From assembly GCF_001402915.1 (NCBI RefSeq), contig NZ_CP012945.1:940001-1004000 (forward strand): a stretch of 64,000 nucleotides of DNA. Reading direction: 5' to 3'. Origin of the DNA: Devosia sp. A16. GTDB lineage: Bacteria; Pseudomonadota; Alphaproteobacteria; Rhizobiales; Devosiaceae. A program made the position numbers and the translations under genes. The notes under the pieces are model-generated. The model was not told the origin of the DNA and ran no database searches. It was given only the letters and a program-made list of their open reading frames with translations. Positions 40,584 through 59,635 of the stretch are shown here, piece by piece. The stretch's first letter is position 1, and each line of letters begins with the position of its first letter.

Positions 40584-40660
40584 GAGCGCTGCTTAACTCT
40601 GTCAAGGATCGCCGGCGTGCCGACGCTCCGCAGCGACCACCAGAGGGAGGACATCCGGCA

Positions 40661-43200: not shown

Positions 43201-44238
43201 ATGAGCGGTGACGAGCGGCGGCCGCGGGCGACGATCAAGGATGTGGCGAAAGCCGCCGAGGTTTCGCCGATGACCGTCTCCAACGTCATCAATGGCCGCA
43301 TGCAGTTCGTCAGCGCCGCCACCAAGAAGCGGGTGGAGCGCGAGATCGAACGGCTGGGCTACCGCCGCTCCTCCAACGCCCGCAACCTGCGCGTTTCCGA
43401 GCAGCGCTCGATCGGCATGGTGATCGTGGACGAATCTCCCGCCTTCCTCGCCGATTTCTTCACCTGCCAGGTGGTGGCCGGGCTCGCCAACGTGCTGAAC
43501 CATGCCGACTATACCCTCACCATTCAGGGCATGCCCGGGGCCGAGCTGGCGCAGTCGATGATCATGCGCAATTTCGAGGTCGCCGGCTTCTGCGCCATGA
43601 TCTCGGGCCCGAAACCCGAACGTCTTGCCGCCATCGCGCGGCTGGCCGATCTCAACCAGCCGGTGGTGGTGTTCCAGCAGGAGCTGCCGGGGGCCGGCCC
43701 CGAGATCTGCACGGTGCGCCAGGACGACCGCGGCGGCGGGCGGCTGATCGGCGATCACCTGCTCGCCCGCCGGGTCGCCGAGATCCTGGTGGTGATCCCG
43801 CACCAGCCCTGGCCGGCAGTGGAGAACCGCATTGCCGGCATCCGCGACAGCATCGCCGCAGCCGGCAGCACCGCCGAGGTGACGGTGATCGAAGCCATGA
43901 GCGAGTCCTTCGCCGATGTGCAGGCGGCCTTTGCCGCCTATCTCGACAGCCACCCCCTGCCCGGCGCCGTGGTCGGCGCCAACGACCCGGTGGCGACCGC
44001 CGCCATGCTGCTGCTCACCGATCGCGGCGTGCGCGTCCCCGAGGATGTGAGGGTCGTCGGCTTCAACGGCTTCGAAGCACACCGATATGCGCGCCCGCAC
44101 ATGACCACGGTCCTTTCTCCCGCCTACGCCGTCGGCGAACGTGCCGGCGAAGCCATGCTGGCCCGGCTCAAATCCGGCCGCTTCGAGCAGCCGGACCATG
44201 TGCTGCCGGTGGTATTCGACCCGGGGTTCACGACCTGA
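43201..44238 (+). CDS. LacI family transcriptional regulator
   Basis: 345 residues. N-terminal LacI HTH: ATIKDVAKAAEVSPMTVSNVINGRMQFVSAATKKRVEREIERLGYRRS, then a periplasmic-binding-protein-like sensor (QRSIGMVIVDESPAFLADFF to the C-terminus). GAGGTGAG upstream of the ATG. Adjacent to and likely controlling the dehydratase/ABC/oxygenase operon at 44465-53454 through the operator at 44397-44414. Confidence 0.93.
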   Translation: MSGDERRPRATIKDVAKAAEVSPMTVSNVINGRMQFVSAATKKRVEREIERLGYRRSSNARNLRVSEQRSIGMVIVDESPAFLADFFTCQVVAGLANVLNHADYTLTIQGMPGAELAQSMIMRNFEVAGFCAMISGPKPERLAAIARLADLNQPVVVFQQELPGAGPEICTVRQDDRGGGRLIGDHLLARRVAEILVVIPHQPWPAVENRIAGIRDSIAAAGSTAEVTVIEAMSESFADVQAAFAAYLDSHPLPGAVVGANDPVATAAMLLLTDRGVRVPEDVRVVGFNGFEAHRYARPHMTTVLSPAYAVGERAGEAMLARLKSGRFEQPDHVLPVVFDPGFTT

Positions 44239-44382: not shown

Positions 44383-44414
44383 TTGACTCCGCAATTACAT
44401 TTAACGTTACATGT
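44383..44414 (+). promoter_or_regulatory. Promoter and LacI-type operator of the dehydratase operon
   Basis: A -35-like TTGACT at 44383-44388 is followed, about one promoter spacer later, by an 18-bp imperfect palindrome at 44397-44414 (acatttaacgttacatgt; 16 of 18 positions symmetric, central CG) typical of LacI-family operators. The operator would cover the -10 region, fitting repression. It overlaps the ATG at 44411, which argues against that ATG as translation start. Confidence 0.6.
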
Positions 44415-44464
44415 CTCAACGCTGCACCAATGAGGGGGCCGCAGCGGTCAGCGAGACAAAACAG

Positions 44465-46213
44465 ATGAGCCACGCCTCCGACGACAGCACGGGAAAGCCC
44501 GCAACCGCCTTCCGCAGTTCGGAATGGTTCGCCCGCGCCGGCAAATACGGCTTCATTCCGCGCAGTTGGATGAAGAGCCAGGGGTTCGTGCCGGAAATGC
44601 TCGATGGCCGGCCGGTGATCGGAATCTGCAACACCTGGTCGGAACTGACCAACTGCAACCGGCACCTGCGCGATCTCGCCGAGCATGTGAAGCGCGGCGT
44701 GCTGATGGCCGGCGGCTTCCCACTCGAATTCCCGGTAACGAGCCTCGGCGAGCCGCTGATGCGGCCGACCACCATGATGTTCCGCAACCTCGTCGCCATG
44801 GATGTCGAGGAGACCATTCGCGCCAACCCGATCGATGGAGTGGTGCTGCTTGCCGGCTGCGACAAGACCACCCCTGCCCTGCTGATGGGCGCCGCCAGTT
44901 GCGACATCCCCACTATCCTCGTCTCGGGCGGCCCGATGCTCAACGGTCGCTTCAAGGGGCGCACCCTCGGTTCGGGCACCGACATGTTCAAGCTCGACGA
45001 GGAATACCGCACCGGCAGGATCTCCAAGGCCGAGCTCGATGCGGCGGAAGCCGCGATGAGCCGCTCGGCCGGTTCCTGCATGACCATGGGCACCGCCTCG
45101 ACCATGGCCTCGCTGGCCGAAGCCATGGGCATCGGCCTGCCGATGAACGGCTCGACCCCGGCCGTCGACAGCCGCCGCGCCGTGCTGTCGGAACAGGCCG
45201 GTATCCGCATCGTCGAGCTGGTGAAGCAGGGCATCACCATTTCCCAGATCCTGACGCGCGAGGCCTTCGAGAACGGCGTCAAGGTCAACGGCGCTATCGG
45301 CGGGTCCACCAATGCTGTGGTGCATCTGCTCGCTCTGGCCGGACGGCTCGGCGTGCCGTTCAATCTCGAGGATTGGGACCGGCTCGGTCGCGATATCCCC
45401 ACCCTCGTCGATCTCAAGCCCTCCGGCCGCTTCCTGATGGAAGAGTTCTTCAACGCCGGCGGCCTGCCGGCGGTGATGGAGCGGCTGCGTGATCGCCTCA
45501 AGCTGGATGCCCCGGTGGTCGAGGGCGGCACCATCGGCGAACGCATCGCCGGGGCTGAGAGCTGGGACGACGAAGTGATCCGCCCGCTCGACAACCCGCT
45601 GACGCCGAAGGGGGGCATGATGGTGCTCAAGGGCAACCTCGCGCCCGATGGCGCCATCATCAAGCCGTCGGCCGCCTCGCCTCGCCTGATGCAGCATCGC
45701 GGCCGGGCGGTGGTGTTCGAAACGGCCGAGGATTTCCGCGCCCGCATCGACGATCCCGATCTCGATGTCGATGCCGACAGCGTGCTGGTGCTGAAGAATG
45801 CCGGGCCGCGCGGCTATCCCGGCATGCCCGAGGTCGGCAGCATGGCGCTGCCCAGAAAGCTGCTCGAACAGGGCGTCACCGACATGGTGCGCGTCTCCGA
45901 TGCGCGCATGAGCGGCACCGCCTTCGGCACCGTGGTGCTGCATGTCGCGCCGGAATCGGCGATCGGCGGCCCTCTGGCGCTTGTCCGCACCGGCGACATC
46001 ATCGTGCTCGACACGGCCGCGCGAAAACTCGAGCTCGAAGTGGACGAGGCCGAACTGGCCCGCCGCCGCGCCGCGTTCGTGCCGCCCCAGCCGGCCTTCG
46101 AGCGGGGCTACGGCAAGCTTTTCATCGATCACGTGCAGCAGGCCGACAAGGGCGTCGATTTCGATTTCCTCGTCGGCGCCAGCGGCACTCCTCCCTCCAA
46201 GGTTTCCTTCTAG
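44465..46213 (+). CDS. IlvD/Edd family sugar-acid dehydratase (arabinonate dehydratase-like)
   Basis: 582 residues. Iron-sulfur dehydratase family: Fe-S ligand Cys in VIGICNTWSELTNCN, LLAGCDKTTPALLMGA and RSAGSCMTMGTAST; C-terminal MSGTAFGTVVLH with the catalytic-region Ser/Thr. Overall closest in form to L-arabinonate/xylonate/fuconate-type dehydratases rather than IlvD. It would convert an aldonate to a 2-keto-3-deoxy acid. The ATG at 44465 is preferred to 44411 because the latter lies in the promoter/operator; the resulting length is normal for the group. Confidence 0.9.
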   Translation: MSHASDDSTGKPATAFRSSEWFARAGKYGFIPRSWMKSQGFVPEMLDGRPVIGICNTWSELTNCNRHLRDLAEHVKRGVLMAGGFPLEFPVTSLGEPLMRPTTMMFRNLVAMDVEETIRANPIDGVVLLAGCDKTTPALLMGAASCDIPTILVSGGPMLNGRFKGRTLGSGTDMFKLDEEYRTGRISKAELDAAEAAMSRSAGSCMTMGTASTMASLAEAMGIGLPMNGSTPAVDSRRAVLSEQAGIRIVELVKQGITISQILTREAFENGVKVNGAIGGSTNAVVHLLALAGRLGVPFNLEDWDRLGRDIPTLVDLKPSGRFLMEEFFNAGGLPAVMERLRDRLKLDAPVVEGGTIGERIAGAESWDDEVIRPLDNPLTPKGGMMVLKGNLAPDGAIIKPSAASPRLMQHRGRAVVFETAEDFRARIDDPDLDVDADSVLVLKNAGPRGYPGMPEVGSMALPRKLLEQGVTDMVRVSDARMSGTAFGTVVLHVAPESAIGGPLALVRTGDIIVLDTAARKLELEVDEAELARRRAAFVPPQPAFERGYGKLFIDHVQQADKGVDFDFLVGASGTPPSKVSF

Positions 46214-46229: not shown

Positions 46230-46910
46230 GTGACCTCCGTGTTTATCCCGCGCCAGAACCCGCCGCTGCCGGAGGGCTGGCAACAGCTCTACTCCGCCGT
46301 GCTGAGCGATGCGCTCGACGCGATCGGCATCTGGAACCAGGCGATGTCGCCGAAGATCCGCCCGCTCGACGAGAGCCTGAAGCTCTGCGGCCGGGCCCGC
46401 ACGGGTCAGTACATGGAGGTGCCGTTCGTCGCCGAGGGCAGCAACCCCTATGAGCTCGAGATCGCCATCGTCGACGATCTGAAGCCGGGCGACGTCGCGG
46501 TGTTCTCCTGCGGCGGCTCTTCGCGCATTGCGCCCTGGGGGAGTCTCCTCTCCACCGCCACCCATGCCCGTGGCGCCGCCGGCTGTATCACCGACGGCTT
46601 CGTGCGCGACATCCTCGGCATCCGCGAGCTCGCGCTGCCGGTGTTCCATGCCGGCATTGCGCCGCTCGATTCCAAAGGTCGCGGCCAGATCCAGGCCGTC
46701 GATGTGCCGGTGATCGTCGATGGCGTCCGCATCGAGCCAGGCGACCTGGTGTTCGGTGATGCCGACGGCGTCGTCGTCGTGCCGCAGGCGGTCGAGGCCG
46801 AAGTGCTGCAGCGCGCCTTCGACAAGGTCAATGGCGAGCACCATTCGATGAACGAGCTGCGCGCCGGCGGTTTCCTGCGCGACGTTTACGCCAAGTACGG
46901 GGTGCTCTGA
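46230..46910 (+). CDS. RraA-like/HMG aldolase family protein
   Basis: 226 residues, GTG start after AAAGGGCG (a second GTG three codons later is possible). The RraA fold is recognisable from SAVLSDALDAIG, GDVAVFSCGGSSRIAPWGSLLSTATHARGAAGCITDGFVRD (the G-x-x-x-D/R metal-pyruvate site) and PGDLVFGDADGVVVVPQ. Several members are class II pyruvate aldolases acting on 2-keto-3-deoxy acids or 4-hydroxy-4-methyl-2-oxoglutarate. Position directly after a sugar-acid dehydratase fits an aldolase role. Confidence 0.87.
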   Translation: MTSVFIPRQNPPLPEGWQQLYSAVLSDALDAIGIWNQAMSPKIRPLDESLKLCGRARTGQYMEVPFVAEGSNPYELEIAIVDDLKPGDVAVFSCGGSSRIAPWGSLLSTATHARGAAGCITDGFVRDILGIRELALPVFHAGIAPLDSKGRGQIQAVDVPVIVDGVRIEPGDLVFGDADGVVVVPQAVEAEVLQRAFDKVNGEHHSMNELRAGGFLRDVYAKYGVL

Positions 46911-47941
46911 TGTCGGCCGGGGGGAACGTCACGCAAGCACGCACCAACCCGGTGGCGAGCTTCTTCAAGATCGAAGGCACCGCCACCGCCCTCGTATTCC
47001 TGGTGCTGATCGTCGTGTTCATGATCACCGCACCGCGCGCCTTTCTCGGCTACCGCGTCTATATGAGCTTCATGGCATCGGTGCCGCCGCCGCTGATCAT
47101 CGCGCTCGGCCTGACCCTGGTGGCGACCGCCGGCGAGATGGATTTGAGTTTCCCCTCCGTCGTCGCCTTCGCCAGCTACGTCTTCGCCTTCCTGTTCCAG
47201 CAATACGACATGACCTGGCTGGCGCTGATCGCGGCGCTCGCTACCGGCACGGTCATGGGCTTCGTCAACGGCCTCGTGGTCACCAAGCTCGGCATCCCCT
47301 CGATGATCGCCACCCTGGCCATGATGTTCCTGTGGGGCGGGCTGGTCACCGTGGTGTCGAACGGCGTCACTGTCGCCATTCCGCAGATCGATGGCACGCT
47401 GATCCAGGCCATCATGGTGGGCCGCATCGGCGGCATCGTGCCGGCGCAGATGCTGTGGGCGATCGCGCTCTCGATCTTCGTCTGGCATCTGCTCAACCGT
47501 CACCGGTTCGGTGAGAACATCCTGTTCATCGGCGACAGCATGAAGGTGGCCAAGGTCGTCGGCATCCAGATCGATCGCGAGAAGATCAAGCTGTTCACCC
47601 TGATGGGGCTGCTCTCGGCGCTGGCCGGCGTCTTCCTCACCGTCGAGACCACCACCTACTTCAACCAGCAAGGCCAGGGCTACCTGCTCACCGTGATCGC
47701 CGCCGTGTTCATCGGCGGAACCTCGATCTTCGGCGGCTCCGGCAAGATCGTCGGCACGGTCTTCGCCTCGCTCATCGTCGCCGTCATCGAAGCCGGCCTC
47801 GTCGCCAGCGGCGTGCAGGGCTTCTGGACGCGCGTCTTCATCGGTCTCGTCTTCATCATCTCCGTGGTGATGAACACCGCCATCGAGGACCCCGACAAGG
47901 TGCCTCTGATCAAGTCCGTGCGCTCGCGCCTGCGGCAGTGA
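46910..47941 (+). CDS. Sugar ABC transporter permease (RbsC-like)
   Basis: 343 residues with 8-10 membrane segments in CUT2 order (PPLIIALGLTLVATAGEMDLSFPSVVAFASY carries the family GE-DLS motif; GGTSIFGGSGKIVGTVFASLIVAVIEAGL near the C-terminus). Start overlaps the aldolase stop (TGATG). Partner of the binding protein and ATPase that follow. Confidence 0.93.
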   Translation: MSAGGNVTQARTNPVASFFKIEGTATALVFLVLIVVFMITAPRAFLGYRVYMSFMASVPPPLIIALGLTLVATAGEMDLSFPSVVAFASYVFAFLFQQYDMTWLALIAALATGTVMGFVNGLVVTKLGIPSMIATLAMMFLWGGLVTVVSNGVTVAIPQIDGTLIQAIMVGRIGGIVPAQMLWAIALSIFVWHLLNRHRFGENILFIGDSMKVAKVVGIQIDREKIKLFTLMGLLSALAGVFLTVETTTYFNQQGQGYLLTVIAAVFIGGTSIFGGSGKIVGTVFASLIVAVIEAGLVASGVQGFWTRVFIGLVFIISVVMNTAIEDPDKVPLIKSVRSRLRQ

Positions 47942-48007: not shown

Positions 48008-48988
48008 ATGAAGTCAATTCTCAGGGGCCTCGCCGGCCTCGCCATGGGTGCCGCGATGGTGGCGGCCCCGCTCGTTGCCACCGCCCAGGAAGCGGTCGAC
48101 AGCGGCATGACCATCTACTTCCAGCTCGGCGGCAATCCGGGCGACAGCGCCACCCTCGCCCGCGAGCTCGGCGCCCGCGATGCGGCTCGCATCCTCAAGG
48201 TCAACCTGATGGAGCAGCATGCCGGCTGGGACCCGCAGAAGATGCTGGTGCAGGCCAACGAAGCGCTGGCCGCCGCACCCGACGCCATCGTGGTGATGGG
48301 CCACCCCGGCACCGACGCAATGACCTCGTTCATCAACAAAGCGAAGGAAGCCGGCATTGTCGTGGTGGTGAACAACAATGCGCTCCCCGGCACCTCGCTG
48401 AGCTATTTCGGCCTCGACAATTTCGGCGCCGGCAAGAACCTCGCCAACCTCACCATCGAAAAGGGCGGGCTCAAGGAAGGCGACAAGGTCGTGGTCTATG
48501 GCGCCTTCATCGAAGGCGCTCCCGGCAATGACGTCGCCAAGGGCACCGTCGAGGTGCTGACCGAAAAGAAGATCGCCTTCGACGAGCTGCAGTGGTCGAA
48601 CGAGGCGGTGGCCGATCCCTCGCTCTCGGTGCCGGTGCTGGTCGCCTATCTCGAAGCCAATCCGGACACCAAGGCGATCATCGTCCCCGGCCACAGCGGC
48701 ATCACCGCCGTGCTCGGCAAGGTCCTCGCCGACGCCGGCAAGCAGCCCGGCGAAGTCGTCGCCTCGGGCTTCGACATCTCCGCGGGCGCCATCCAGGGGT
48801 TGAAGGACGGCTACATCACCGTGGTGCTCGACCAGCAGCCGTACCTCCAGGGCTTCATGCCGGTGGTCGCTGCCGTGCTCGAAAAGAAGTACGGCCTCGC
48901 CGGCCTCAACCTCAACACTGGCGGAGGTTCGGTGACCAAGGACAATGTCGAGGCGCTGGAAGCCCTGGTGAAAACCGGCATCCGGTAA
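48008..48988 (+). CDS. Sugar-binding periplasmic protein (ribose family)
   Basis: 326 residues. Sec signal peptide MKSILRGLAGLAMGAAMVAA ending near ATAQ. Mature Peripla_BP_4-type chain with KILKV-like first lobe, GWDPQKMLVQANEALAAAPDAIVVMGHPGTDAM and VVLDQQPYLQGFMPVVAA. Ligand unknown; in view of the downstream oxygenase, a methylated or otherwise modified sugar or inositol is a candidate. AGGGAAAGGA precedes the ATG. Confidence 0.92.
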   Translation: MKSILRGLAGLAMGAAMVAAPLVATAQEAVDSGMTIYFQLGGNPGDSATLARELGARDAARILKVNLMEQHAGWDPQKMLVQANEALAAAPDAIVVMGHPGTDAMTSFINKAKEAGIVVVVNNNALPGTSLSYFGLDNFGAGKNLANLTIEKGGLKEGDKVVVYGAFIEGAPGNDVAKGTVEVLTEKKIAFDELQWSNEAVADPSLSVPVLVAYLEANPDTKAIIVPGHSGITAVLGKVLADAGKQPGEVVASGFDISAGAIQGLKDGYITVVLDQQPYLQGFMPVVAAVLEKKYGLAGLNLNTGGGSVTKDNVEALEALVKTGIR

Positions 48989-49113: not shown

Positions 49114-49890
49114 ATGACATCCACCCCGATCGTCCGGCTCGAGAACGTTCGCAAGCAATACGGCAAGGTCGTTAGCCTCAAGAACGTCACGCTCGAGATC
49201 GGCGCCAACGAGATCGTCGGTCTGATCGGCGACAACGGCGCCGGCAAATCGACCCTGATCAAGGTGCTGACCGGCGTGGAGCAGCCTTCGAGCGGCACCA
49301 TCTATGTGCGCGGCCAGAAGATCGATGCGGCGAGCTACTCGGTGAAAGAGGCGCACAAGCTCAAGATCGAGACCGTCTACCAGGACTCCTCGCTGGGCGA
49401 GAAGCAGCCGCTGTGGCGCAACTTCTTCGTCGGCCGGCCGCTGACCAACCGCTTCGGCTTCATCGACGTGAAGGCCGAAAAGCGCATCGCCAACGAGATC
49501 ATGCGCTCGACCATCGGCTTTCGCGGCGTCGGCATCGATGTCGATACCCCGGTGAGCCGGCTGTCGGGCGGCGAGCGCCAGGGCGTCGCCATTGGCCGCG
49601 CCATGCATTTCGACAGCGACCTGATCGTGCTCGACGAGCCGACCGTGGCGCTGGCTTTGAAGGAAGTGAACAAGGTGCTGGACTTCATCCGCTCGATCAA
49701 GGCGGGTGGCCGCAGCTGCATCTACATCGAACACAACATCCACCACGTGCACGAGGTGTGCGACCGGCTGGTGGTGCTCGACCGCGGCGAGATCGCGCTC
49801 GACGCACCGACCTCGTCGATGACCTACACCGAACTCACCGATTTCCTGATGTCGCTGCACAAGCCGCGCGTGGCGGGGGCCGTGCCATGA
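49114..49890 (+). CDS. Sugar ABC transporter ATP-binding protein (single domain)
   Basis: 258 residues. Walker A GDNGAGKST, Q-loop VYQDSSLG, signature LSGGERQGVAIGRA, Walker B LIVLDEPTVALA, H-loop IEHN. As with the protein at 15063, it is half the size of RbsA. The last 47 coding bases recur, decayed and with a one-base deletion, at 52518-52563 beyond the reductase gene. The stop overlaps the desaturase-like gene (ATGA). Confidence 0.93.
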   Translation: MTSTPIVRLENVRKQYGKVVSLKNVTLEIGANEIVGLIGDNGAGKSTLIKVLTGVEQPSSGTIYVRGQKIDAASYSVKEAHKLKIETVYQDSSLGEKQPLWRNFFVGRPLTNRFGFIDVKAEKRIANEIMRSTIGFRGVGIDVDTPVSRLSGGERQGVAIGRAMHFDSDLIVLDEPTVALALKEVNKVLDFIRSIKAGGRSCIYIEHNIHHVHEVCDRLVVLDRGEIALDAPTSSMTYTELTDFLMSLHKPRVAGAVP

Positions 49891-50978
49891 AGATGACCTC
49901 GTTGCTGCGCTTTGCAACCAACCGCGACTACTCGCTCGTCGGGCCCGAAGCCGCCAAAGCGATCGAGACGGGGCTCGCCAATGGCGAGTGGTACAAATCG
50001 CCCATACCGCGCAAGCGGCTGAAGGAGTTGATGGCGCGATCGGATGGGCCGGCGCTGCGCGATACGGCAATCTGGCTCGGGCTGATCCTCGCCTTTGGCG
50101 GCCTCGGCATCTGGCTCTGGGGAACCTGGTGGGCGGTGCCGGTCTTTGCCGTCTACGGCGTGCTCTATGCCTCGGCGGCCGATTCCCGCTGGCACGAATG
50201 CGGACACCGCACGGCGTTCCGCACCGTCTGGATCAACGATGCCGTCTATGCGCTGGCCTCGTTCCTGCTGTTGCGCAGCCCCACTGCTTGGCGGTGGAGC
50301 CACACGCGGCACCACACCGACACGATCATCGTCGGGCGTGACCCCGAGATCGCCGGTATGCGGCCGCCGCAGTTGATCATCATGGTGCTCAACATCTTCG
50401 GCTTGGTGAATGTGCCGCAGTCGCTGGCGACGCTGGCTCGCTACAGCGTGGGCCGGCTCAACGCCGAGGAGCTGGACTACGTCCCTCAGATGGAGCGCTG
50501 GCGGGTGCAGGTCGAGGCAATCGTCATCCTCGCAATACACCTCGGGGCGCTGGCCGTGGCCGTCGCGACCTCGAGCCTCTTGCCGGTGGTGCTGATCGGC
50601 GGGCCCAACATCTACGGCATCTGGTTCCTGTGGTGGGTGGGGAACACCCAGCACCTGGGGCTGGCGGAGGATGTACTGGATCACCGGCTCGATGCGCGCA
50701 CGGTCTACATGAACCCGGTGTTCCGCTTCCTCTACTGGAACATGAACTACCATGTGGAGCACCATATGTACCCGATGGTCCCCTATCACGCCCTCAAGGC
50801 GCTGCATGAGGAGGTGAAGGCCGACTGTCCACCCGCGACGCCGAGCGTCATGGCGGCCTGGCGAGAGATCCTGCCAACCATTCTGAGGCAGTTGAACGAC
50901 CCGACGCATTTTATCCGCAAGCAGTTGCCGGCGGGCGCGGGACAACTGGCCGAGCGCGCGGGGGCACACCATGGCTGA
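49887..50978 (+). CDS. Membrane di-iron oxygenase of fatty acid desaturase fold (MocD-like)
   Basis: 363 residues. Three histidine boxes characteristic of membrane desaturases/hydroxylases: HECGH (103-107), HTRHH (139-143) and HVEHH (289-293), plus an extra NTQH at 253-256. Membrane segments at about 60-95, 115-130, 165-180 and 215-250. With a Rieske ferredoxin and a flavin reductase immediately downstream it forms a complete electron chain. The same trio, MocD-MocE-MocF, acts in Sinorhizobium meliloti rhizopine use, where it removes an O-methyl group. A lipid desaturase role is less likely in this sugar operon. Confidence 0.85.
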   Translation: MKMTSLLRFATNRDYSLVGPEAAKAIETGLANGEWYKSPIPRKRLKELMARSDGPALRDTAIWLGLILAFGGLGIWLWGTWWAVPVFAVYGVLYASAADSRWHECGHRTAFRTVWINDAVYALASFLLLRSPTAWRWSHTRHHTDTIIVGRDPEIAGMRPPQLIIMVLNIFGLVNVPQSLATLARYSVGRLNAEELDYVPQMERWRVQVEAIVILAIHLGALAVAVATSSLLPVVLIGGPNIYGIWFLWWVGNTQHLGLAEDVLDHRLDARTVYMNPVFRFLYWNMNYHVEHHMYPMVPYHALKALHEEVKADCPPATPSVMAAWREILPTILRQLNDPTHFIRKQLPAGAGQLAERAGAHHG

Positions 50979-51288
50979 GTGGATCCGGGCCTGCGGCGTC
51001 GACGACATCGACACCGAGGATGTCGTTCGCTTTGACCACGCTGGGCGGACCTTCGCCATCTACCGCAGCCCTGACGACAGGTTCTACGCAACCGACGGGC
51101 TCTGCACGCATGAGCTGGCACATCTCGCCGATGGCTTCGTGATGGATTCGATCATCGAGTGCCCCAAGCACAATGGTCGGTTCGACTATCGCACCGGCGC
51201 GGCCAAGGGTGCGCCGGTCTGCGTCAACCTCAAGACCTATCCGGTCCGGGTCGACGGCGATCAGGTTCTGATCGAGGTCAGCCCCTGA
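50971..51288 (+). CDS. Rieske [2Fe-2S] ferredoxin, MocE-like
   Basis: 105 residues. Rieske ligands are Cys45-x-His47 in LCTHELAHLADG and Cys64-x2-His67 in ECPKHNGRFD. Small soluble Rieske ferredoxins of this size pass electrons from a flavoprotein reductase to an oxygenase. Overlaps the oxygenase gene by eight bases and lies two bases before the reductase gene, so the three are translationally coupled. Confidence 0.92.
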   Translation: MAEWIRACGVDDIDTEDVVRFDHAGRTFAIYRSPDDRFYATDGLCTHELAHLADGFVMDSIIECPKHNGRFDYRTGAAKGAPVCVNLKTYPVRVDGDQVLIEVSP

Positions 51289-51290
51289 CC

Positions 51291-52505
51291 ATGGCATCTC
51301 AGGCAGCGGTCATCATCGGTGCCGGATTCGCCGGCGTGTCGGCGGCCTTCGCGCTTCGCGAGACGGGCCATCTCGGCCCGATAACGATCGTCGGCGACGA
51401 GGGCCACCTGCCCTACGAGCGCCCACCGCTCTCCAAGGGCCTCCTGAATGGGAGCCAATCCGGCCTGGTGCCGATCCGGCCGGCACCGGACTATGCCGCC
51501 GCCGGCATCGAGCTCCTGACGGGCGCCGCCGCGCTCGGCATCGATCGGAAACGATGGCGGGTGGAACTTTCGACCGGGCCCGCCCTGCCCTATGACCAAT
51601 TGCTGCTCGCGACCGGGGCCGCTCCGCGCCGCCTCGATCTGCCGGGCAGTGATGCGGTGGCCATCCACACGCTGCGCGACGCACGCGACCTCGAACGCCT
51701 GCAGCCGGCATTTGTCAGCGCGCGGCGGCTGGCAATTGTCGGCGGGGGATTGATCGGCCTGGAACTGGCCGCGGCCGCCCGCCAGCGAGGCATTGAGACG
51801 ACGGTGATTGAAGCGGGCCCCCGTATCCTCGGCCGCGGCGTCCCGCACGCTTTGGCTGCGGTGCTGGCCGACAAGCATCGCAGCAACGGCGTGACGATTC
51901 TTACCGACGCGACCCCGGTCTCGGTATCGCCGGCCGGTGTGACGCTGAGCGACGGCCGGACCATCGAGGCCGACACCATCATCGTCGCCATCGGTGTCTC
52001 GCCCAGGACATCCCTGGCCGAAACGAGCGGGCTCGCTGTTGCCGGCGGCATCGTCACCGACAGCATACTCCAGGTGATCGATGGGATTTTCGCGGCCGGC
52101 GACTGCGCCGTCACCGCGCATCCGCTCTTCGGCAATGCTGCGGTGCGCCTCGAAAGCTGGCAGAGCGCCGGCGACCATGGCGCGGTGGCTGGACGCAACA
52201 TGGCGGGGCGGGCCGAGCCGATCGGGATCGTGCCGTGGATGTGGAGCGATCAGTACGATCTGGGCCTCTACATGGCGGGGCTGCCGGCGATCGCCGCGAC
52301 GATGGTGGACCGGGTCGAAGATGGCCTCATTACGCAGTTTCAGCTTGATCCATCGGGGCGGCTCGTCGGCGCCGCATCGCTGGGCGTCGGCACGTCGGCA
52401 TCGCGCGGCATCAAGATCGCCAGCCGGCTGATCGCTGGTCGCGCCGTGATCGACACCAGCTATCTGGCCGATCCATCCCGTCCGTTGAAGGCCCTGCTGT
52501 CGTGA
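51291..52505 (+). CDS. FAD-dependent NAD(P)H:ferredoxin reductase, MocF-like
   Basis: 404 residues. FAD-binding GAGFAG (residues 10-15), YERPPLSKGLL, NAD-binding VGGGLIGLELAAAARQRG and the FAD-contact IFAAGDCAVT, followed by the reductase C-terminal domain. Closest in form to reductases of Rieske oxygenases, cytochrome P450s and rhizopine MocF. It would supply electrons through the Rieske ferredoxin to the membrane oxygenase. Confidence 0.92.
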   Translation: MASQAAVIIGAGFAGVSAAFALRETGHLGPITIVGDEGHLPYERPPLSKGLLNGSQSGLVPIRPAPDYAAAGIELLTGAAALGIDRKRWRVELSTGPALPYDQLLLATGAAPRRLDLPGSDAVAIHTLRDARDLERLQPAFVSARRLAIVGGGLIGLELAAAARQRGIETTVIEAGPRILGRGVPHALAAVLADKHRSNGVTILTDATPVSVSPAGVTLSDGRTIEADTIIVAIGVSPRTSLAETSGLAVAGGIVTDSILQVIDGIFAAGDCAVTAHPLFGNAAVRLESWQSAGDHGAVAGRNMAGRAEPIGIVPWMWSDQYDLGLYMAGLPAIAATMVDRVEDGLITQFQLDPSGRLVGAASLGVGTSASRGIKIASRLIAGRAVIDTSYLADPSRPLKALLS

Positions 52506-52517
52506 GGGCTGGCAAGC

Positions 52518-52563
52518 GAACTCGCCGATTTCCTGACGTCCTGCACAAGCCGCACGTCGCCGC
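52518..52563 (+). pseudogene. Decayed copy of the 3' end of the ABC ATPase gene
   Basis: Aligns with 49831-49877 (the last codons of the ATPase gene, from gaactc through aagccgcgcgtggcg) with about six substitutions and a one-base deletion after gacgtc. It lies between the reductase stop and the amidohydrolase start. Best explained as the old end of the ATPase gene left behind, or duplicated, when the oxygenase-ferredoxin-reductase genes entered the operon. Confidence 0.75.
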
Positions 52564-52584
52564 AACAACCTGATCGGAGCCGCC

Positions 52585-53454
52585 ATGACCGCCCGCGCCT
52601 ATTGTGATTGCCACGTCAATATCTACAACGAAGAGCACATCCTGCCGCTCTACTGGACGCTGCACGGCCGGGTGCGGAAGGGCGAACTGGCGCATCAATC
52701 CGATGCGGATTCGCTCTACAAGGCGATGGCCGAGGTGGAAAAGGCCATCATCTTCACCCTGCGCTATGCCGACGCCATCGGCGTCGAGGGCGACGACGAA
52801 ACCACCGCCGCGGCGGTCAGGAAATACCCCGACAAGTTCGTCGGCTTCGCTTATGTCGATCCCCGCCGTGCCGACTACATGGATATGCTGGTGCACGGCA
52901 TCGAGGACCTGGGGCTCAAGGGCGTGAAGTTCGGGCCGATCTACAACGGCGTGCATCTCTCCGACCCGCGTCTCGAGCCGGTCTACGAGTACCTGCAGAA
53001 GCGCAACCTGCCGCTGACCATGCATATGGGCACCACCTATGCCCGCAACGCCCCGGTGGAGCTGGGGCGGGCCATCCATGTCGAGCCGGTGGCGATGAAA
53101 TACCCCGACCTGACCATGGTCCTCGCCCATATGGGCCACCCCTGGTACGACGAGGCGATCGTCGTGGCGCGCAAGCAACCCAATGTCTGGCTGGAACAGT
53201 CGGCGCTCTTCTACCGGCCCTGGCAGTACTACAACATGCTGGTGCTGGCAGAGGAATACCGCACCGCCGACAAGATCTTCTTCGGCACCGACTTCCCCTT
53301 CGCCGGGGTGGCGGAATCGGCCGACGGGCTGATCAACATCAACAAGCAGCTCGAAGGCACCAACCTGCCACGCGTCAGCGAGGAGACCATCCAGTCGATC
53401 CTCTGGTCGAACCCGTTCAAGACCTGGTGGAAGGGCGACAACCCGCTGGGGTGA
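52585..53454 (+). CDS. Amidohydrolase family protein (ACMSD/lactonase superfamily)
   Basis: 289 residues. The N-terminal metal motif reads CDCHVNIY, so the usual HxH is HxN; other landmarks are VKFGPIYNGVHLSD, LPLTMHMGTTYAR, LAHMGHPWYDEA and FFGTDFPFAG with the catalytic Asp. Probably a lactonase or decarboxylase in the same pathway. Last gene of the LacI-controlled operon; before insertion of the oxygenase genes it would have followed the ATPase gene directly. Confidence 0.8.
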   Translation: MTARAYCDCHVNIYNEEHILPLYWTLHGRVRKGELAHQSDADSLYKAMAEVEKAIIFTLRYADAIGVEGDDETTAAAVRKYPDKFVGFAYVDPRRADYMDMLVHGIEDLGLKGVKFGPIYNGVHLSDPRLEPVYEYLQKRNLPLTMHMGTTYARNAPVELGRAIHVEPVAMKYPDLTMVLAHMGHPWYDEAIVVARKQPNVWLEQSALFYRPWQYYNMLVLAEEYRTADKIFFGTDFPFAGVAESADGLININKQLEGTNLPRVSEETIQSILWSNPFKTWWKGDNPLG

Positions 53455-53618
53455 GGGGCGGCCCGCTGCGACCGACAGCACCTCGCTGGTGGGATGCGTT
53501 CCACATCGCCGAACGCGCCCCATCAGGCATCGCGAATAATACAATAAGAACATAATCTTAAGTCGCGACCCGACCTAAGTTGTAGCCTCAGGTCGATTGA
53601 CTCATCTCAGACGAAGGC

Positions 53619-53654: not shown

Positions 53655-53867
53655 AAGAAACCGGGGAATGCGGCTCTGAGGAGAGGGAGGCCGGTCAAGC
53701 GGCAAGCCGTGCGGTTGGACACGCACCTGCGCCCGCAGGAGCGTGAACGCCGAAGGTTTGCCCAGCAGCCGGTTAGTGTGAGCGTGAGCACGCTGCTGTT
53801 CGAGCAATGGATTGACGATGGCGCTGCAGGAGCGTGGGGGGATGCCCCATGTCCTCCACCCACTCGG

Positions 53868-53947
53868 TGTCATCCCCGCGGAAGCGGGGATCCATCTCGC
53901 AGCCCGAGCCGAACGGCGAGTTGGGTCCCAGCTTTCGCTGGGATGAC
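53868..53947. repeat. Intergenic palindromic repeat, family C
   Basis: gtcatccccgcggaagcggggatcc faces gggtcccagctttcgctgggatgacac. Located between the IclR-type site and the IclR gene. Confidence 0.75.
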
Positions 53948-54026
53948 ACCCGGTGTGGAAGGCCGGCCCACGGGCCGTTCCGTTCAACATGCTGCGGCCA
54001 GCAAGCGCCGGAGCGGCGGGCAATAA

Positions 54027-54818
54027 ATGTCCAGCATCCGGCGCGCCATTCAGGTTCTCGACCTGCTCGCCCGCAAGGGTGGGCTGGGCGCGCGCGCCGT
54101 GGCCCAGCAATTGAGCCTGCCCGTGGGCTCGGTGCACCGGCTGCTGATCGACCTCGCCGACGAGGGCGTGGTGGAGCGCGACGCCGACGGTGGCTGGCAG
54201 CTGTCGTACCGGCTGCTGGCGATCACCGACCTGCAGCTCGACGGCGTCGCCTTCCCCCGGCTGGCCCGGCCGTTCTGCGAAGCCATCGCCGAAAAGACCC
54301 GCGAGACGGTGAACGTCAACGTCCTGAGCGGCGAGGGGTGCGTGTGCATCGACAAGGTGCGCGGCAACCAGAACATGCAGCTCGACTGGCGCATCGGCGC
54401 GCGCGGGCCGCTCTATTGCGGCGGCAGCGCCAAGGCCATCCTCGCCTTTCTTGGCGAGGCCGAGCAGCAGCGCGTGTTCGACCAGCCGATGACCACCTTC
54501 ACCCGCTACACCATCACCGACCCCACCGAGCTCCGCGCCGAGCTCGCGCGGATCCGGAAGCGCGGCTACGCCATCGACAACCAGGAAGTCGTGGTGGGTG
54601 TGTTCTGCGTCGGCGTGCCGATCGTCGACCGGCTCGGCCGGCCGGTCGGCGCCATTTCCATTTCCGGGCCCACTCCCAAGGCGCCCGGCGCGGCGATCCA
54701 GCCGCAGGTGGAGCTGCTCAACGAAGCCGCGAGCAGCGTGAGCCGGCGGCTTGGCTACAACGGCCAGTGGCCGCCGCCGCAGGCCGGCGAGCGGGCCCTC
54801 GCCACATCAACAACCTGA
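54027..54818 (+). CDS. IclR family transcriptional regulator
   Basis: 263 residues. HTH: SIRRAIQVLDLLARKGGLGARAVAQQLSLPVGSVHRLLIDLADEGVVER, then the effector domain (GGSAKAILAFLGE; RGYAIDNQEVVVGVFCVGVPIVD). First gene of the rhamnose-type operon and probably its regulator. The stop lies 17 bases before the mutarotase start. The last residues overlap a 14-base string shared with 52563-52576. Confidence 0.9.
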   Translation: MSSIRRAIQVLDLLARKGGLGARAVAQQLSLPVGSVHRLLIDLADEGVVERDADGGWQLSYRLLAITDLQLDGVAFPRLARPFCEAIAEKTRETVNVNVLSGEGCVCIDKVRGNQNMQLDWRIGARGPLYCGGSAKAILAFLGEAEQQRVFDQPMTTFTRYTITDPTELRAELARIRKRGYAIDNQEVVVGVFCVGVPIVDRLGRPVGAISISGPTPKAPGAAIQPQVELLNEAASSVSRRLGYNGQWPPPQAGERALATSTT

Positions 54819-54835
54819 TCGAGGATTTTGAGACG

Positions 54836-55141
54836 ATGCGCTCTGCATGGGTAATGAAGCTGAAGCCCGGCCAGGAAGCCGAGTACAAGCGCAAGCACGA
54901 CGAGATCTGGCCCGAGATGGTGGCGCTGCTGAAAAGCCAGGGCGTCTCCAACTACACCATCTACCGCTACGATCTGCTGCTCTTTGCCTACCTCGAAAAG
55001 CCCGACAACGCGCCCAGCCAGACCGAGGGCGTCGACCCGGTGGTGCTCAAGTGGTGGAAGTGGATGGAACCCCACATGGAAACGCACGAGGACGCCCGGC
55101 CCAAGGCCTGGCCGGTCGAAGAAATGTTCCGGCTGGATTGA
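54836..55141 (+). CDS. rhaM: L-rhamnose mutarotase
   Basis: 101 residues: MRSAWVMKLKPGQEAEYKRKHDEIWPEMVALLKSQGVSNYTIY, with the conserved KP, KHDEIWPE and the C-terminal WWKWMEPHMETHEDARPKAWPVEEMFRLD. This is the canonical RhaM length and pattern. It equilibrates the anomers of L-rhamnose (or L-fucose) before oxidation. Followed seven bases later by a lactonase gene. Confidence 0.92.
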   Translation: MRSAWVMKLKPGQEAEYKRKHDEIWPEMVALLKSQGVSNYTIYRYDLLLFAYLEKPDNAPSQTEGVDPVVLKWWKWMEPHMETHEDARPKAWPVEEMFRLD

Positions 55142-55148
55142 GGGCATC

Positions 55149-56030
55149 ATGCTGAAGGTCGTCGATCCGCATATCCACCTGTGGGACCTGTGGACCCGCA
55201 TCTACCCGCATTTCGAAAAGCCGGGCAAAGGCGGCGCCAATGCCGCGATCTCGCGCAGCTACCTGCTCGAGGAATATCTCGAGGAAGCCGGCGACGAGAT
55301 CGAGATCGTCGGCGCGGTGCATGTCGAGGCCTTCCCCACCGATCCGGTCAAGGAGTCCGAGACGCTACAGGCGGTGGCCGACCGCAGCCCGATACCGATC
55401 GTCCTGGTGGCGCATGGCGACCTCGCCGCGCCCGACTTCGGCGCCCTGCTCGACCGGCACGCGCAGTTCCCGATCATGCGCGGCATCCGCCAGGTGGTGA
55501 ACCGCCACCCCGATCCCAAGCTCAACTACATCACTCGCGACCTGATGGATGAGCCTGGCTGGATCGGCGGGCTCAAGGAACTCGGCCGCCGCGGCCTGAG
55601 CTTCGACCTCCAGCTCTACCCGCACCAGATGGCCCAGGCGGCGAAGCTCGCAGGCGCGGCGTCGCAGACGCAGATCATCCTCAACCATGCCGGCATGTGG
55701 GCCGACCGCGATCTCGCGGGCTGGAAGGCCTGGAAATCGGGCATGCGCGAACTCGCGGCGCGTCCGAACATCGCGGTCAAGATCAGCGGCCTCGGCATGC
55801 TCGACCGGACCTGGACCACCGAAAGCTTCCGCCCGCTGGTGCTGGAAACGCTCGAAATCTTCGGGCCGGAGCGGGCGATGTTCGCCTCGAACTTCCCGGT
55901 CGACAAACTGACCAGCACCTTCCCGACGCTGTGGCAGGCCTTCGCCAAAATCACCGAAGGCGCCTCGGAAGCGGAGAAGGCCGCCTTGTTCCAGGGCAAC
56001 GCGCGAAAATTCTACCGCATCCCAAGCTGA
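55149..56030 (+). CDS. Sugar lactonase of the amidohydrolase family (rhamnono-/fuconolactonase-like)
   Basis: 293 residues. Metal motif VVDPHIHLWD, VGAVHVEAFPTDP, ILNHAGMWAD and FASNFPVDKL, the last typical of L-fuconolactonase-type enzymes where the usual SDFP is SNFP. Placed between a mutarotase and an L-rhamnonate dehydratase-like gene, so hydrolysis of L-rhamnono-lactone is the best reading. Confidence 0.88.
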   Translation: MLKVVDPHIHLWDLWTRIYPHFEKPGKGGANAAISRSYLLEEYLEEAGDEIEIVGAVHVEAFPTDPVKESETLQAVADRSPIPIVLVAHGDLAAPDFGALLDRHAQFPIMRGIRQVVNRHPDPKLNYITRDLMDEPGWIGGLKELGRRGLSFDLQLYPHQMAQAAKLAGAASQTQIILNHAGMWADRDLAGWKAWKSGMRELAARPNIAVKISGLGMLDRTWTTESFRPLVLETLEIFGPERAMFASNFPVDKLTSTFPTLWQAFAKITEGASEAEKAALFQGNARKFYRIPS

Positions 56031-56079
56031 CCTGCCGCCTTCGGCGCCCAACCGACATACGACTACCTGGAGATTTCTA

Positions 56080-57264
56080 GTGAAGATCAAGAACATCGAA
56101 GCCTTTGCCATCACCAACCCGATTGCCGGCGGCATTTACGACGAGGGCAAGGACAAGGTGACGGCGCGCCGCCCCCCCTGGACCAAGGATGCCGAAGTCG
56201 CCAACCCGATGTCGCGCTACCCGCGCTACAAGGCGCTGCGCTCGAGCTGGAATAACGCCTTTCCTGCGGTCGGCGTCATCGTCACCGCCGACGACGGCTC
56301 CTGGGGTTTTGGCGTCACTGGCTACGGCCAGCCCACCATCAGCCTGATCAACGACCATATCGGTCCGCTGCTGCACGAGGAGAACGCTCTCGCCACCGAG
56401 AAGCTGTGGGACATGATGATGCGCATCACGTCGCCCTACTCTTCCTCGGGCCTCGCCTCCTACGCCATCAGCGGCATCGATCTGGCGCTGTGGGACCTCA
56501 AGGGCAAGGTGCTGAAGCTGCCGGTCTATGAACTCGCCGGCGGCGCTGCCCGCGACAAGCAGTTCTGCTACGCCACCGGCAACGACACGGACTGGCACAT
56601 GGAGCTGGGCTTCAAGGCCACCAAGCTCGCCTGCCCCTACGGCACCGCCGATGGGCTCGAGGCGCTCGACAAGAACGAAGCCTTCGTCGGCAAGGCGCGC
56701 GAGCTGATCGGCCCGCATGTCGAGCTGATGCTCGATTGCTGGATGGCCTTCGACGTCGAATTCGCCGTGCGCCTCGCTCACCGGCTGAAGCCGTTCAACC
56801 TGAAATGGATGGAAGACTGCCTGATCCCGGAGGATCACACCTCGCACAAGGCGCTGCGCGAACGCCTGCCCTGGCAGACGCTGGCCACCGGCGAGCACTG
56901 GTACACCCCTTACACCTTCTTCGAGGCGGCCAAGGATCGAGTCGTCGATATCTTCCAACCCGACATCAACTGGGTCGGCGGCTTCACCGCGGTGCAGAAG
57001 ATCACTGCCATCGCCGACGCCTCGGGCCTCGAAGTGATCTGCCATGCCGGCATGAACACGCCCTATGGCCAGCACTTCAACTACTCGGCGCCCGACTCGC
57101 GCTGGGGTGAGTATTTCGTCGGCGGCGCCCCCGGCATCCCGTTGAAGCACACCAACAACTACCCCGGCATGGCGGTCCCCCAGGACGGCTACGTCGTGGT
57201 CAGCGACGAGCCCGGCTTCGGCCATGGGCTGTCGAAAGACGCCATCGAGAAGATGGCGCTCTGA
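56080..57264 (+). CDS. rhmD: L-rhamnonate dehydratase (enolase superfamily)
   Basis: 394 residues, GTG start after GGAG. The N-terminal DAEVANPMSRYPRYKALRSSW and the barrel landmarks LMLDCWMAFDVEFAVRLAHRL (Asp ligand), KWMEDCLIPEDH (Glu), ATGEHW (Glu) and VICHAGMNTPYGQHF (catalytic His) match the L-rhamnonate dehydratase subgroup. Product: 2-keto-3-deoxy-L-rhamnonate. Closely related acid sugars such as L-lyxonate or L-mannonate are alternative substrates. Confidence 0.88.
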   Translation: MKIKNIEAFAITNPIAGGIYDEGKDKVTARRPPWTKDAEVANPMSRYPRYKALRSSWNNAFPAVGVIVTADDGSWGFGVTGYGQPTISLINDHIGPLLHEENALATEKLWDMMMRITSPYSSSGLASYAISGIDLALWDLKGKVLKLPVYELAGGAARDKQFCYATGNDTDWHMELGFKATKLACPYGTADGLEALDKNEAFVGKARELIGPHVELMLDCWMAFDVEFAVRLAHRLKPFNLKWMEDCLIPEDHTSHKALRERLPWQTLATGEHWYTPYTFFEAAKDRVVDIFQPDINWVGGFTAVQKITAIADASGLEVICHAGMNTPYGQHFNYSAPDSRWGEYFVGGAPGIPLKHTNNYPGMAVPQDGYVVVSDEPGFGHGLSKDAIEKMAL

Positions 57265-57294
57265 ACATGAGCCCGGTGGGCGGGATCTCTCCCA

Positions 57295-57382
57295 CTCACC
57301 GGGTCCGGCGAAAGCGGGAACCCCTGTTTTCTCGCGAGACGGCACCATCGCAAACGGAGGTCCCCGCTTTCGCGGGGATGAC
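57295..57382. repeat. Intergenic palindromic repeat, family C
   Basis: caccgggtccggcgaaagcgggaacccc and ggaggtccccgctttcgcggggatgac. Between the dehydratase and the binding-protein gene. Confidence 0.7.
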
Positions 57383-57440
57383 GCCGAGCGAGGGGCAAAG
57401 AATTCAACGAGTGGCCGAAACCGGCCGGAGGAGGACCATC

Positions 57441-59222
57441 ATGAACCACAGATCCCTGAGGCAGCATCTGCTCGGCGGCGCCATCGCGCTGCTGGCGGCG
57501 CCGCTGCTGGCATCGACTGCCTTTGCCCAGGTGGCCGACATGCCGCGCAACGAAACCCTGGTGCTGACCCCGTGGGGCGACCAGCCGGCGCAGTTCGCCA
57601 ACACCGAGAACTGGCACCCCTACCTGACCTCGGTCACCCACCAGCGCGATGTGATGCAGATCACCGTCAACGAGGCGCTGTTCTACACCAACCTCAACGA
57701 CGGCAAGCTGATCCCGTGGCAGGCCGAAAGCTTCGAATATGCGCCCGACTTCATGAGCGCCTCGATCAAGCTGCGTGACGGGGTCGAGTGGTCGGACGGG
57801 CAGAAGTTCACTGCCGACGACGTGAAATTCACCCTCGAGGCCGTGCGCGATGCGCCGCCGGAAGTCGGCGGTTCGGCAGCGTTCAAGGAGTGGATCAAGG
57901 ACGTTACCGTCGTCGACCCGCTGAACGTCACCATCAACTTCAACAAGGCGGCGCCGCGCTTCGTCCGCGACTTCCTGGCGCTCGGACACGAGAACCACTA
58001 CCCGATCCTGCCCAAGCACATCTGGGAAGGTCAGGACATCGCGACCTTCACCAACTACGACCCGGCCAAGGGCTGGCCGGTCGGCACCGGCGCCTACAAG
58101 CTGGTCTCGAGCACCAACCAGCAGGAGATCTTCGATCGCCGCGACGACTGGTGGGGCGCCAAGGTCGGCTTCCAGGATCTGCCGGCGCCCAAGCGCATCA
58201 CGCTGGTGCCGGTGTCGAGCGATGACGCCATGGGCCAGCTCCATATCGCCAACCAGATCGATGGCGGCCGGCAGCTGCTGATCGGCACCTTCGAAGCCGC
58301 CCGCGCGCAGAACGACAAGCTGAGCTCGTGGAATGCCGAAGGCCCGAACTGGGGCGCTCCGGATGGCTGCGACTACTCCCTGGTCTTCAACATGATGAAG
58401 GAGCCATGGAACGATGTGAACCTGCGCTACGCCATCAACTATGCCATCGATCGGGAAGCCATTAACGACATCGGCTACGAAGGCGGCCAGAAGCCGGTGA
58501 CCTTCGCCTTCTCCAACTACATGGCCGGCACCTGGCTCACCGAAGGCAGCCCGCTCAAGGCGGTGCTCGACAAGTACGACCTCGACAATCCCGACCCGGC
58601 CAAGGTCGAGGAATACATGGCCAAGTCCGGCTACACCAAGGACGCGAACGGGCTATGGGGCAAGGACGGCAAGCCGCTGACCGTCACGGTGCGCACCCCG
58701 GCCTTCATCCAGCCGACGCTGGCCCCGCTGACCCAGCAGCTCAAGAATGCCGGCTTCGACGCGGTGCAGGCCCCGGTGGACGACACCTGGCTGCCCGACA
58801 TCCAGTCGGGCAACTTCGACACCATGGTTTTCGTCCATTGCGGTTCGCTCTCCGAACCGCTGGAGACCCTGCAGCACTACCATTCGAAGTTCGCCCGGCC
58901 GCTCGGCGAGAACATCCCGAACGCCGTCGCCGCCTCGCGTTACATGAACCCGGAATACGACAAGCTGATCGATGCCATGGATGCCGTCCCGGCCAGCACC
59001 GATCCCAATTCCGACTACATGAAGAATGCCGTGGCGGCCCTCGACATCGCGCTGCGCGACCTGCCGCAGATCGACATGCTCGAGGAATACCACGTGGTGA
59101 CCTTCAACAACACCTACTGGACCGGCTGGCCGTCGGCGACCGATCCCTACGTGGCCCCCTACACCCCGTGGGAAGCGTTCAACGTGGTGATCCACAACCT
59201 GAAGCCCACCGGCGCGCAGTAA
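57441..59222 (+). CDS. Peptide/oligosaccharide-binding protein of ABC transporter (family 5)
   Basis: 593 residues. Signal peptide MNHRSLRQHLLGGAIALLAA ending near AFAQ. SBP_bac_5 features: LYTNLNDGKLIPWQAESFEY, IKLRDGVEWSDGQKFTADDVKFTLEAV and the C-terminal half with LRYAINYAIDREAINDIGY. GGAGGAGG precedes the ATG. Family 5 proteins usually bind peptides but several bind oligosaccharides; here the neighbours argue for rhamnose-containing oligosaccharides or glycosides. Confidence 0.93.
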   Translation: MNHRSLRQHLLGGAIALLAAPLLASTAFAQVADMPRNETLVLTPWGDQPAQFANTENWHPYLTSVTHQRDVMQITVNEALFYTNLNDGKLIPWQAESFEYAPDFMSASIKLRDGVEWSDGQKFTADDVKFTLEAVRDAPPEVGGSAAFKEWIKDVTVVDPLNVTINFNKAAPRFVRDFLALGHENHYPILPKHIWEGQDIATFTNYDPAKGWPVGTGAYKLVSSTNQQEIFDRRDDWWGAKVGFQDLPAPKRITLVPVSSDDAMGQLHIANQIDGGRQLLIGTFEAARAQNDKLSSWNAEGPNWGAPDGCDYSLVFNMMKEPWNDVNLRYAINYAIDREAINDIGYEGGQKPVTFAFSNYMAGTWLTEGSPLKAVLDKYDLDNPDPAKVEEYMAKSGYTKDANGLWGKDGKPLTVTVRTPAFIQPTLAPLTQQLKNAGFDAVQAPVDDTWLPDIQSGNFDTMVFVHCGSLSEPLETLQHYHSKFARPLGENIPNAVAASRYMNPEYDKLIDAMDAVPASTDPNSDYMKNAVAALDIALRDLPQIDMLEEYHVVTFNNTYWTGWPSATDPYVAPYTPWEAFNVVIHNLKPTGAQ

Positions 59223-59635
59223 GCGCCGGGCAGTGATCGCGCGGATGGCGGCGTGTGCTGCCATCCGCAATTGACTGGCCGCAACGGCTCTTATGGAGAC
59301 TCAATAGTGCAACCCCCACCGGTGTCATCCCTGCGAAAGCAGGGACCCAACTCCCCGCCCACGCCAGCTGATGGTTGGGTCCCTGCTTTCGCAGGGATGA
59401 CATCGCAAATGTACAGCCACCAGTGGTGCAGTGCTCCTCCACCGCATAGCGGGGGAGGGGGACCAGCGAAGCTGGTGGAGGGGGCGGCCCCAAACACCGG
59501 CGCATCCTGCCGCCCCCTCCACCGCCTTCGGCGGTCCCCCCGCGGTGAGGGCCTCTGGCCCTCATCCGCCTCCCCCGTTTCACGGTGGAGGAGCACGGAG
59601 AGTCCCGTGCGTGTGCCACCCTGGGGAACCCCGCG
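59223..59635. repeat. Intergenic region, 413 bases, with family C and family A repeats
   Basis: A family C unit (about 59326-59403) is followed by a family A unit (about 59433-59590). Between the binding-protein and permease genes of one operon; likely modulates stoichiometry. No coding sequence seen. Confidence 0.72.

Follow-up and report, generated by a model that had tools for sequence, protein, structure and literature searches.

The 64,000-nucleotide stretch of Devosia sp. A16 analyzed here (contig NZ_CP012945.1, positions 940,001 to 1,004,000; hereafter the window) contains a conserved sugar operon in which a cassette of three genes, encoding a membrane di-iron oxygenase, a Rieske ferredoxin and a ferredoxin reductase, forms an extra unit between the genes for the ATPase of an ATP-binding cassette (ABC) transporter and an amidohydrolase. 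A first-pass annotation, made from the sequence alone, had located this trio and, behind it, a decayed repeat of the end of the ATPase gene, and both were confirmed. The features are listed below with window coordinates; G011 and G015 are related genomes.

43201..44238, + strand: LacI-family regulator of the operon (open reading frame; Pfam LacI and Peripla_BP_3; kept in relatives)
44411..46213, + strand: IlvD/Edd-type sugar-acid dehydratase (PRK06131, 904.5 bits against a cut-off of 539)
46251..46910, + strand: RraA-like aldolase (PF03737, 117.9 bits against 24.5; 0 NCBIfam models above cut-off)
46910..47941, + strand: sugar ABC permease (open reading frame in conserved order; named by position and sequence character)
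48008..48988, + strand: periplasmic sugar-binding protein (Peripla_BP_4)
49114..49890, + strand: ABC ATPase, with final codons VAGAVP from the cassette leader (VAATN in G011)
49830..49874, + strand: first copy of the 45-base duplicated ATPase 3' end, within the functional gene (43/45 identical to G011)
49868..49886, + strand: leader of the cassette, carrying the ribosome site of the oxygenase, like the amidohydrolase-oxygenase spacer of G015 (blastn piece begins at 49868)
49887..50978, + strand: membrane di-iron oxygenase, MocD type
50971..51288, + strand: Rieske [2Fe-2S] ferredoxin, MocE family (TIGR02377; motif C-x-H-x17-C-x2-H at residue 45)
51291..52505, + strand: ferredoxin reductase binding flavin adenine dinucleotide (FAD) and nicotinamide adenine dinucleotide (NAD), MocF type (Pyr_redox_2, 229.2 bits; Reductase_C, 49.7 bits)
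52517..52560, + strand: scar, the second copy of the ATPase 3' end, decayed and with its frame broken by one lost base
52561..52584, + strand: old ATPase stop codon (TGA) and spacer with the amidohydrolase ribosome site, colinear with G011
52585..53454, + strand: Amidohydro_2 protein, probable sugar lactonase (PF04909, 126 bits)

The ATPase stop codon and the oxygenase start codon overlap as ATGA, and the reductase start was placed at the ATG at 51291, inside the listed open reading frame 51159-52505. The two copies of the ATPase 3' end (49830-49874 and 52517-52560) are identical in 40 of 45 alignment columns, with four substitutions and one deleted base. About six substitutions and one deleted base had been claimed initially; the deletion was correct and the decay is slightly less than stated. 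Aligning the ATPase end with the spacer behind the cassette, as had been suggested, showed the duplication to be real, with a score of 63 against maxima of 34 when the target was resampled 20,000 times under a Markov model and 27 when 1,587 other window pieces of 100 bases were used. A search of the own genome with the ATPase end found only these two places at E <= 0.01, and repeat finding returned the 45-base repeat as D5 and D9 only, among chance families.

The closest relative found, G011, has the operon, with proteins 96 to 99% identical, and lacks the trio. Its ATPase ends in KPRVAATN followed by the stop codon, and the amidohydrolase starts about 17 bases further on. The window ATPase gene tracks that of G011 to about position 49874 and then diverges, and positions 52517-52587 follow the G011 junction through the old stop codon and the amidohydrolase ribosome site (63/72 match). 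The stretch from 52517 to 53459 aligns with the G011 ATPase end and amidohydrolase gene as a single piece of 944 columns at 94.7% identity. This match identifies the scar as the original junction and indicates that the ATPase gene now ends in the cassette leader. Over the 20 bases preceding the oxygenase ATG, 15 match the G015 spacer, compared with 2 to 10 of 20 for the leaders of 12 other window genes. The cassette leader thus supplies the ATPase gene with a new 3' tail, and the old stop codon, spacer and ribosome site stayed with the amidohydrolase gene. Among 16 operon loci examined, 10 have an ATPase (>60% identical) followed by the amidohydrolase, with a gap between the matched ends of 15 to 50 bases in all 10; having these two genes side by side is therefore ancestral, and the window arrangement derived. 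The first-pass annotation had proposed that the cassette entered an older ATPase-amidohydrolase junction with duplication of the ATPase 3' end, and had recommended comparing synteny in related genomes; cassette-free relatives were indeed found, and the empty site of G011 aligned in one piece.

Compared with G011, the relic shows differences in 9 of 72 columns and a broken frame, the working copy shows them in 2 of 45, and synonymous differences between the window and G011 amount to 12 to 21%. From these small numbers, the age of the relic seems close to that of the split from G011. The operon is here seen while acquiring a peripheral step, with a scar dated by the divergence of the relic and the working copy from G011.

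The source of the trio was approached through its divergence, composition and distribution. Between the window and G015, the number of synonymous substitutions per synonymous site (dS) is 0.58 for the oxygenase, 0.80 for the Rieske protein and 0.72 for the reductase, and in the operon backbone 0.65 for IlvD, 0.70 for RraA, 0.44 for the permease, 0.57 for the binding protein, 0.34 for the ATPase and 0.56 for the amidohydrolase. A recent import from a G015-like donor, in its simple form, was rejected because the trio values (0.58 to 0.80) are not below those of the backbone (0.34 to 0.70). The G+C content (0.63 to 0.69 in the trio, 0.63 to 0.68 in its neighbors) gives no sign of foreign origin. 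In a genus sample of 19 genomes, the oxygenase occurs only in the genome of the window (G000) and in G015 (91% identity); the other matches, one of them to another gene of the own genome, are at 54 to 57%. No other match exceeded 57% in the family sample (136 genomes, E <= 1e-110), and the best other match was 62% in the order sample; the wider sampling took in 397 genomes of the order and 385 of the class, a part of each. The second oxygenase gene of the own genome (5018845-5019873; loci L045 and L168) is 57% identical to that of the cassette and has orthologues in several species of the genus; no match to the Rieske or reductase gene lies within 10 kb of it.

Since trio and operon dS are on a par, a foreign import is not required and the trio may have moved within the operon; an old trio, relocated there and lost in G011 and G001, would explain the distribution as well as an outside source. 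We regard the following course as quite possible. The ancestral trio would have stood after the amidohydrolase gene, as in G015, and a tandem duplication would have spanned the ATPase 3' end, the amidohydrolase gene and the trio. The first amidohydrolase gene and the second trio would then have been lost, leaving the order ATPase, trio, ATPase relic, amidohydrolase; G011 and G001 would have lost the trio, whose function would be the one proposed below. The three trio dS values lie against those of the six backbone genes as if both had traveled together, and the cassette leader resembles the amidohydrolase-oxygenase spacer of G015. In addition, tandem copies of the amidohydrolase gene lie directly after the ATPase gene, at the same spot, in G256 and G162 (loci L200 and L201), so that the junction appears prone to duplicate. 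However, this course requires two gene losses here as well as the trio losses in G011 and G001, a search of the latter genomes at E <= 1e-5 returned no trio remnant, only a paralogue in G011, and the 11 bases following the reductase stop codon resemble G015 weakly. Genomic islands that insert at gene ends provide the gene with a replacement tail and displace its old end. The new tail and displaced 45-base old end are the anatomy such events leave, but the cassette comprises three tightly packed genes and 11 bases of filler with no integrase gene, and the own genome holds no third copy of the 45 bases; that it is the remnant of an element inserted by an integrase at the ATPase 3' end is very improbable.

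G011, G001, G015 and G021 share the order LacI, IlvD, RraA, permease, binding protein, ATPase, amidohydrolase, and so do, outside the family, G086, G378, G256, G162, G132 and G309. The IlvD protein scores 851.2 bits with the L-arabinonate dehydratase model, below the cut-off of 882, and its nearest solved chains are 8ej0 and the L-arabinonate dehydratase 9evv. The amidohydrolase matched no NCBIfam model, has weak solved kin in 3irs and 5-carboxyvanillate decarboxylase, and is a probable sugar lactonase. Of the 10 loci in which the ATPase and amidohydrolase genes are paired, 7 have a short-chain dehydrogenase/reductase (SDR) gene divergent from LacI; the two SDRs checked were nearest to D-xylose 1-dehydrogenase (XylB model, 317 to 319 of 400 bits). 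Given the XylB-like SDR and an IlvD close to L-arabinonate dehydratase, the route reads dehydrogenase, lactonase, dehydratase and aldolase.

As to the trio, the Rieske protein passes the MocE family model TIGR02377 (179.5 bits, cut-off 136.15). The oxygenase scores 128.8 bits with Pfam FA_desaturase, has three histidine boxes whose histidines are invariant in 38 rows, and is 56% identical over 98% to a Sinorhizobium meliloti 1021 pSymB protein; PMC11387232 gives pSymB as the replicon with the named genes mocD-mocE-mocF. Both reductase domains exceed their Pfam cut-offs, and the protein reaches 293.8 of 450 bits with the HcaD model. In five of seven annotated plasmid neighborhoods with oxygenase homologues, the order is desaturase, MocE ferredoxin and FAD oxidoreductase; the remaining two list no MocE gene. 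The resemblance to MocD-MocE-MocF that had been pointed out thus holds as homology, through the MocE cut-off and the 56% oxygenase match, and does not extend to the rhizopine operon. A rhizopine (moc) operon identity was ruled out by the binding protein, which scores 82.8 bits with the rhizopine binding-protein (MocB) model, far from the cut-off of 420; no rhizopine-type binding protein was matched in the own genome at E <= 1e-90. Across the order, 14 of 397 genomes have such a protein above the cut-off. Queries of the Gfo/Idh and sugar-isomerase kinds, taken from two plasmids as stand-ins for MocA and MocC, had no match in the window at E <= 1e-10.

We lean towards reading the cassette as an oxidative O-demethylase module recruited to a non-phosphorylative sugar pathway of the xylose/arabinose type, with the demethylation and the substrate deduced from protein family and gene context. 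Electrons from NADH would pass from the reductase to the Rieske protein and on to the di-iron center of this MocDEF-type O-demethylase, which would hydroxylate an imported methyl sugar, or its acid, at the O-methyl group; the resulting hemiacetal would break down into formaldehyde and the free sugar. The latter would be oxidized by a 1-dehydrogenase (an SDR resembling xylose dehydrogenase, encoded next to the operon in relatives and elsewhere here), the lactone opened by the amidohydrolase, and the product dehydrated by IlvD and cleaved by the RraA aldolase. O-methyl sugars are present in plant and bacterial glycans, and our guess is that O-methyl pentoses or deoxyhexoses of such glycans are the substrates. 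To our knowledge, few enzymes are known that remove the methyl group from O-methyl sugars; if correct, the proposal provides a named gene set and a predicted one-carbon product for finding a sugar O-demethylase, with natural comparisons in G000 and G015, which have the trio, and G011 and G001, which do not. For the O-demethylation route of the first-pass annotation, the operon, trio and scar are established, and the demethylation of a methylated sugar is moderately favored.

An association of the oxygenase with this operon was also seen elsewhere. In G015 the same trio lies 3' of the amidohydrolase gene, whereas G086, from another family, has an SDR, an oxygenase (48% identical to that of the window) and a Rieske protein above the MocE cut-off (153.6 bits) divergent from LacI, with gaps of 73, 39 and 19 bases. 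In each of these two genomes, the oxygenase adjoining the operon is the sole homologue at E <= 1e-30. Nine of the 11 genomes with the full operon have oxygenase homologues at this threshold, ten in all; without the two of the own genome, 2 of 8 adjoin the operon. Only G086 counts as a separate case because G015 shares the trio with the window. The chance of one such case was estimated at about 5%, taking 20 kb of flank together with the operon, about 4 Mb per genome and seven genomes, and is lower when the tight spacing is counted. In the oxygenase tree, 0% of 200 bootstrap trees join G086, which has a long branch, with the window and G015, and two origins therefore fit the tree; the approximately unbiased (AU) test does not reject a single origin (p-AU 0.094). 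Nine class-level amidohydrolase loci had no oxygenase (0/9), which argues against a wide pattern. We tentatively suggest that a membrane di-iron O-demethylase for methylated pentoses or deoxyhexoses may have joined one conserved oxidative sugar operon at least twice, out of two oxygenase lineages and at three positions; if so, this would constitute a modular, testable methyl-sugar route outside rhizopine catabolism.

The gene neighborhoods of oxygenase relatives bear on the proposed one-carbon product. Among 80 named oxygenase loci, a Rieske gene lies within 6 kb in 75, a reductase gene in 54, a PanB-like gene in 40 and a PurU-like gene in 10, and in Agrobacterium HAMBI 105 the trio, PanB, PurU and FolD lie in a row. 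More generally, trios of the MocDEF type are often followed by a PanB-like gene and sometimes by PurU and FolD (L180, NZ_CP139999.1 8992-14296; L129, L179 and L181). The PanB-like and PurU-like neighbors fit a release of formaldehyde, and the PanB-like protein may be a distinct enzyme handling one-carbon units.

Several observations weigh against a sugar O-demethylase role in this operon. The PanB-like protein checked is below both PanB cut-offs, and the window and G015 loci have no matches to PanB, PurU or FolD. A sugar 1-dehydrogenase is absent from the window operon, and the best SDR homologue in the own genome is 50% identical and lies far off, at 3362207. Most operon-bearing relatives have no adjoining oxygenase; IlvD, RraA and this amidohydrolase are all missing from the 6 kb around every one of the 80 named oxygenase loci, and the oxygenase was not seen near the rhizopine-type binding protein in any of the 14 loci that encode one above the cut-off, two of which were truncated by contig ends. 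Di-iron membrane oxygenases hydroxylate many C-H bonds, and the target here might be a ring or side carbon of the sugar, an N-methyl group or another substituent; the one-carbon genes in the family context favor release of a one-carbon unit, and we consider such a target somewhat unlikely. An oxygenase that hydroxylates or desaturates lipids or carotenoids and shares the operon by accident would agree with its Pfam family, FA_desaturase, and with CrtR being the sole NCBIfam model touched (25.9 of 475 bits). We find this improbable in view of the MocD-type oxygenases that adjoin this operon in two other arrangements (G015 and G086), the MocE-level Rieske protein and the one-carbon genes adjoining many relatives.

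Elsewhere in the window, a second sugar locus (54027-59222) encodes an IclR regulator, a family-5 binding protein, a protein that we take to be an L-rhamnose mutarotase, an amidohydrolase resembling fuconolactonase (86.8 of 400 bits) and an enolase resembling rhamnonate dehydratase (283.1 of 393 bits); G011 has about 6.5 kb of extra DNA, with another ABC system, before this locus. Upstream of the operon, a 557-amino-acid protein (40577-42250) adjoins a fuconolactonase-like amidohydrolase; it had no match among Pfam and NCBIfam families and no meaningful one among solved chains. Intergenic stretches such as 53834-53960 and 59283-59350 align to intergenic stretches elsewhere in relatives (about 100 bases, 72 to 92%) and probably constitute a short dispersed repeat family.

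We found no paper describing this gene set in the open-licence PubMed Central (PMC) literature, where searching was partly narrow and absence in print only weakly tested. The nearest known system is MocDEF of S. meliloti rhizopine catabolism, which (PMC10107442, PMC2593844 and PMC3538637) has the same order of oxygenase, Rieske ferredoxin and ferredoxin reductase. Further points of likeness are the Rieske protein above the MocE cut-off and the LacI regulators near many members of the oxygenase family. The window trio differs in that it is embedded in an IlvD-RraA-amidohydrolase sugar operon, with no neighbors of the mocA, mocB, mocC or mocR type matched and a binding protein far below the rhizopine model; the oxygenase was compared with the pSymB protein. 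In PMC6341043, the name mocD stands for a different, mannopine gene. With the non-phosphorylative xylose and arabinose pathways, the operon shares an IlvD close to L-arabinonate dehydratase, an aldolase and, adjoining it in relatives, a XylB-like SDR, whereas here an RraA-type aldolase and an Amidohydro_2 lactonase replace the usual enzymes and the oxygenase trio is added. The P450-ferredoxin-reductase system for 6-O-methyl-D-galactose of marine bacteria, as described in PMC10033563, likewise combines an oxygenase with redox partners for oxidative sugar O-demethylation with release of formaldehyde; it employs a cytochrome P450 in place of a membrane di-iron enzyme and belongs to another pathway and phylum.

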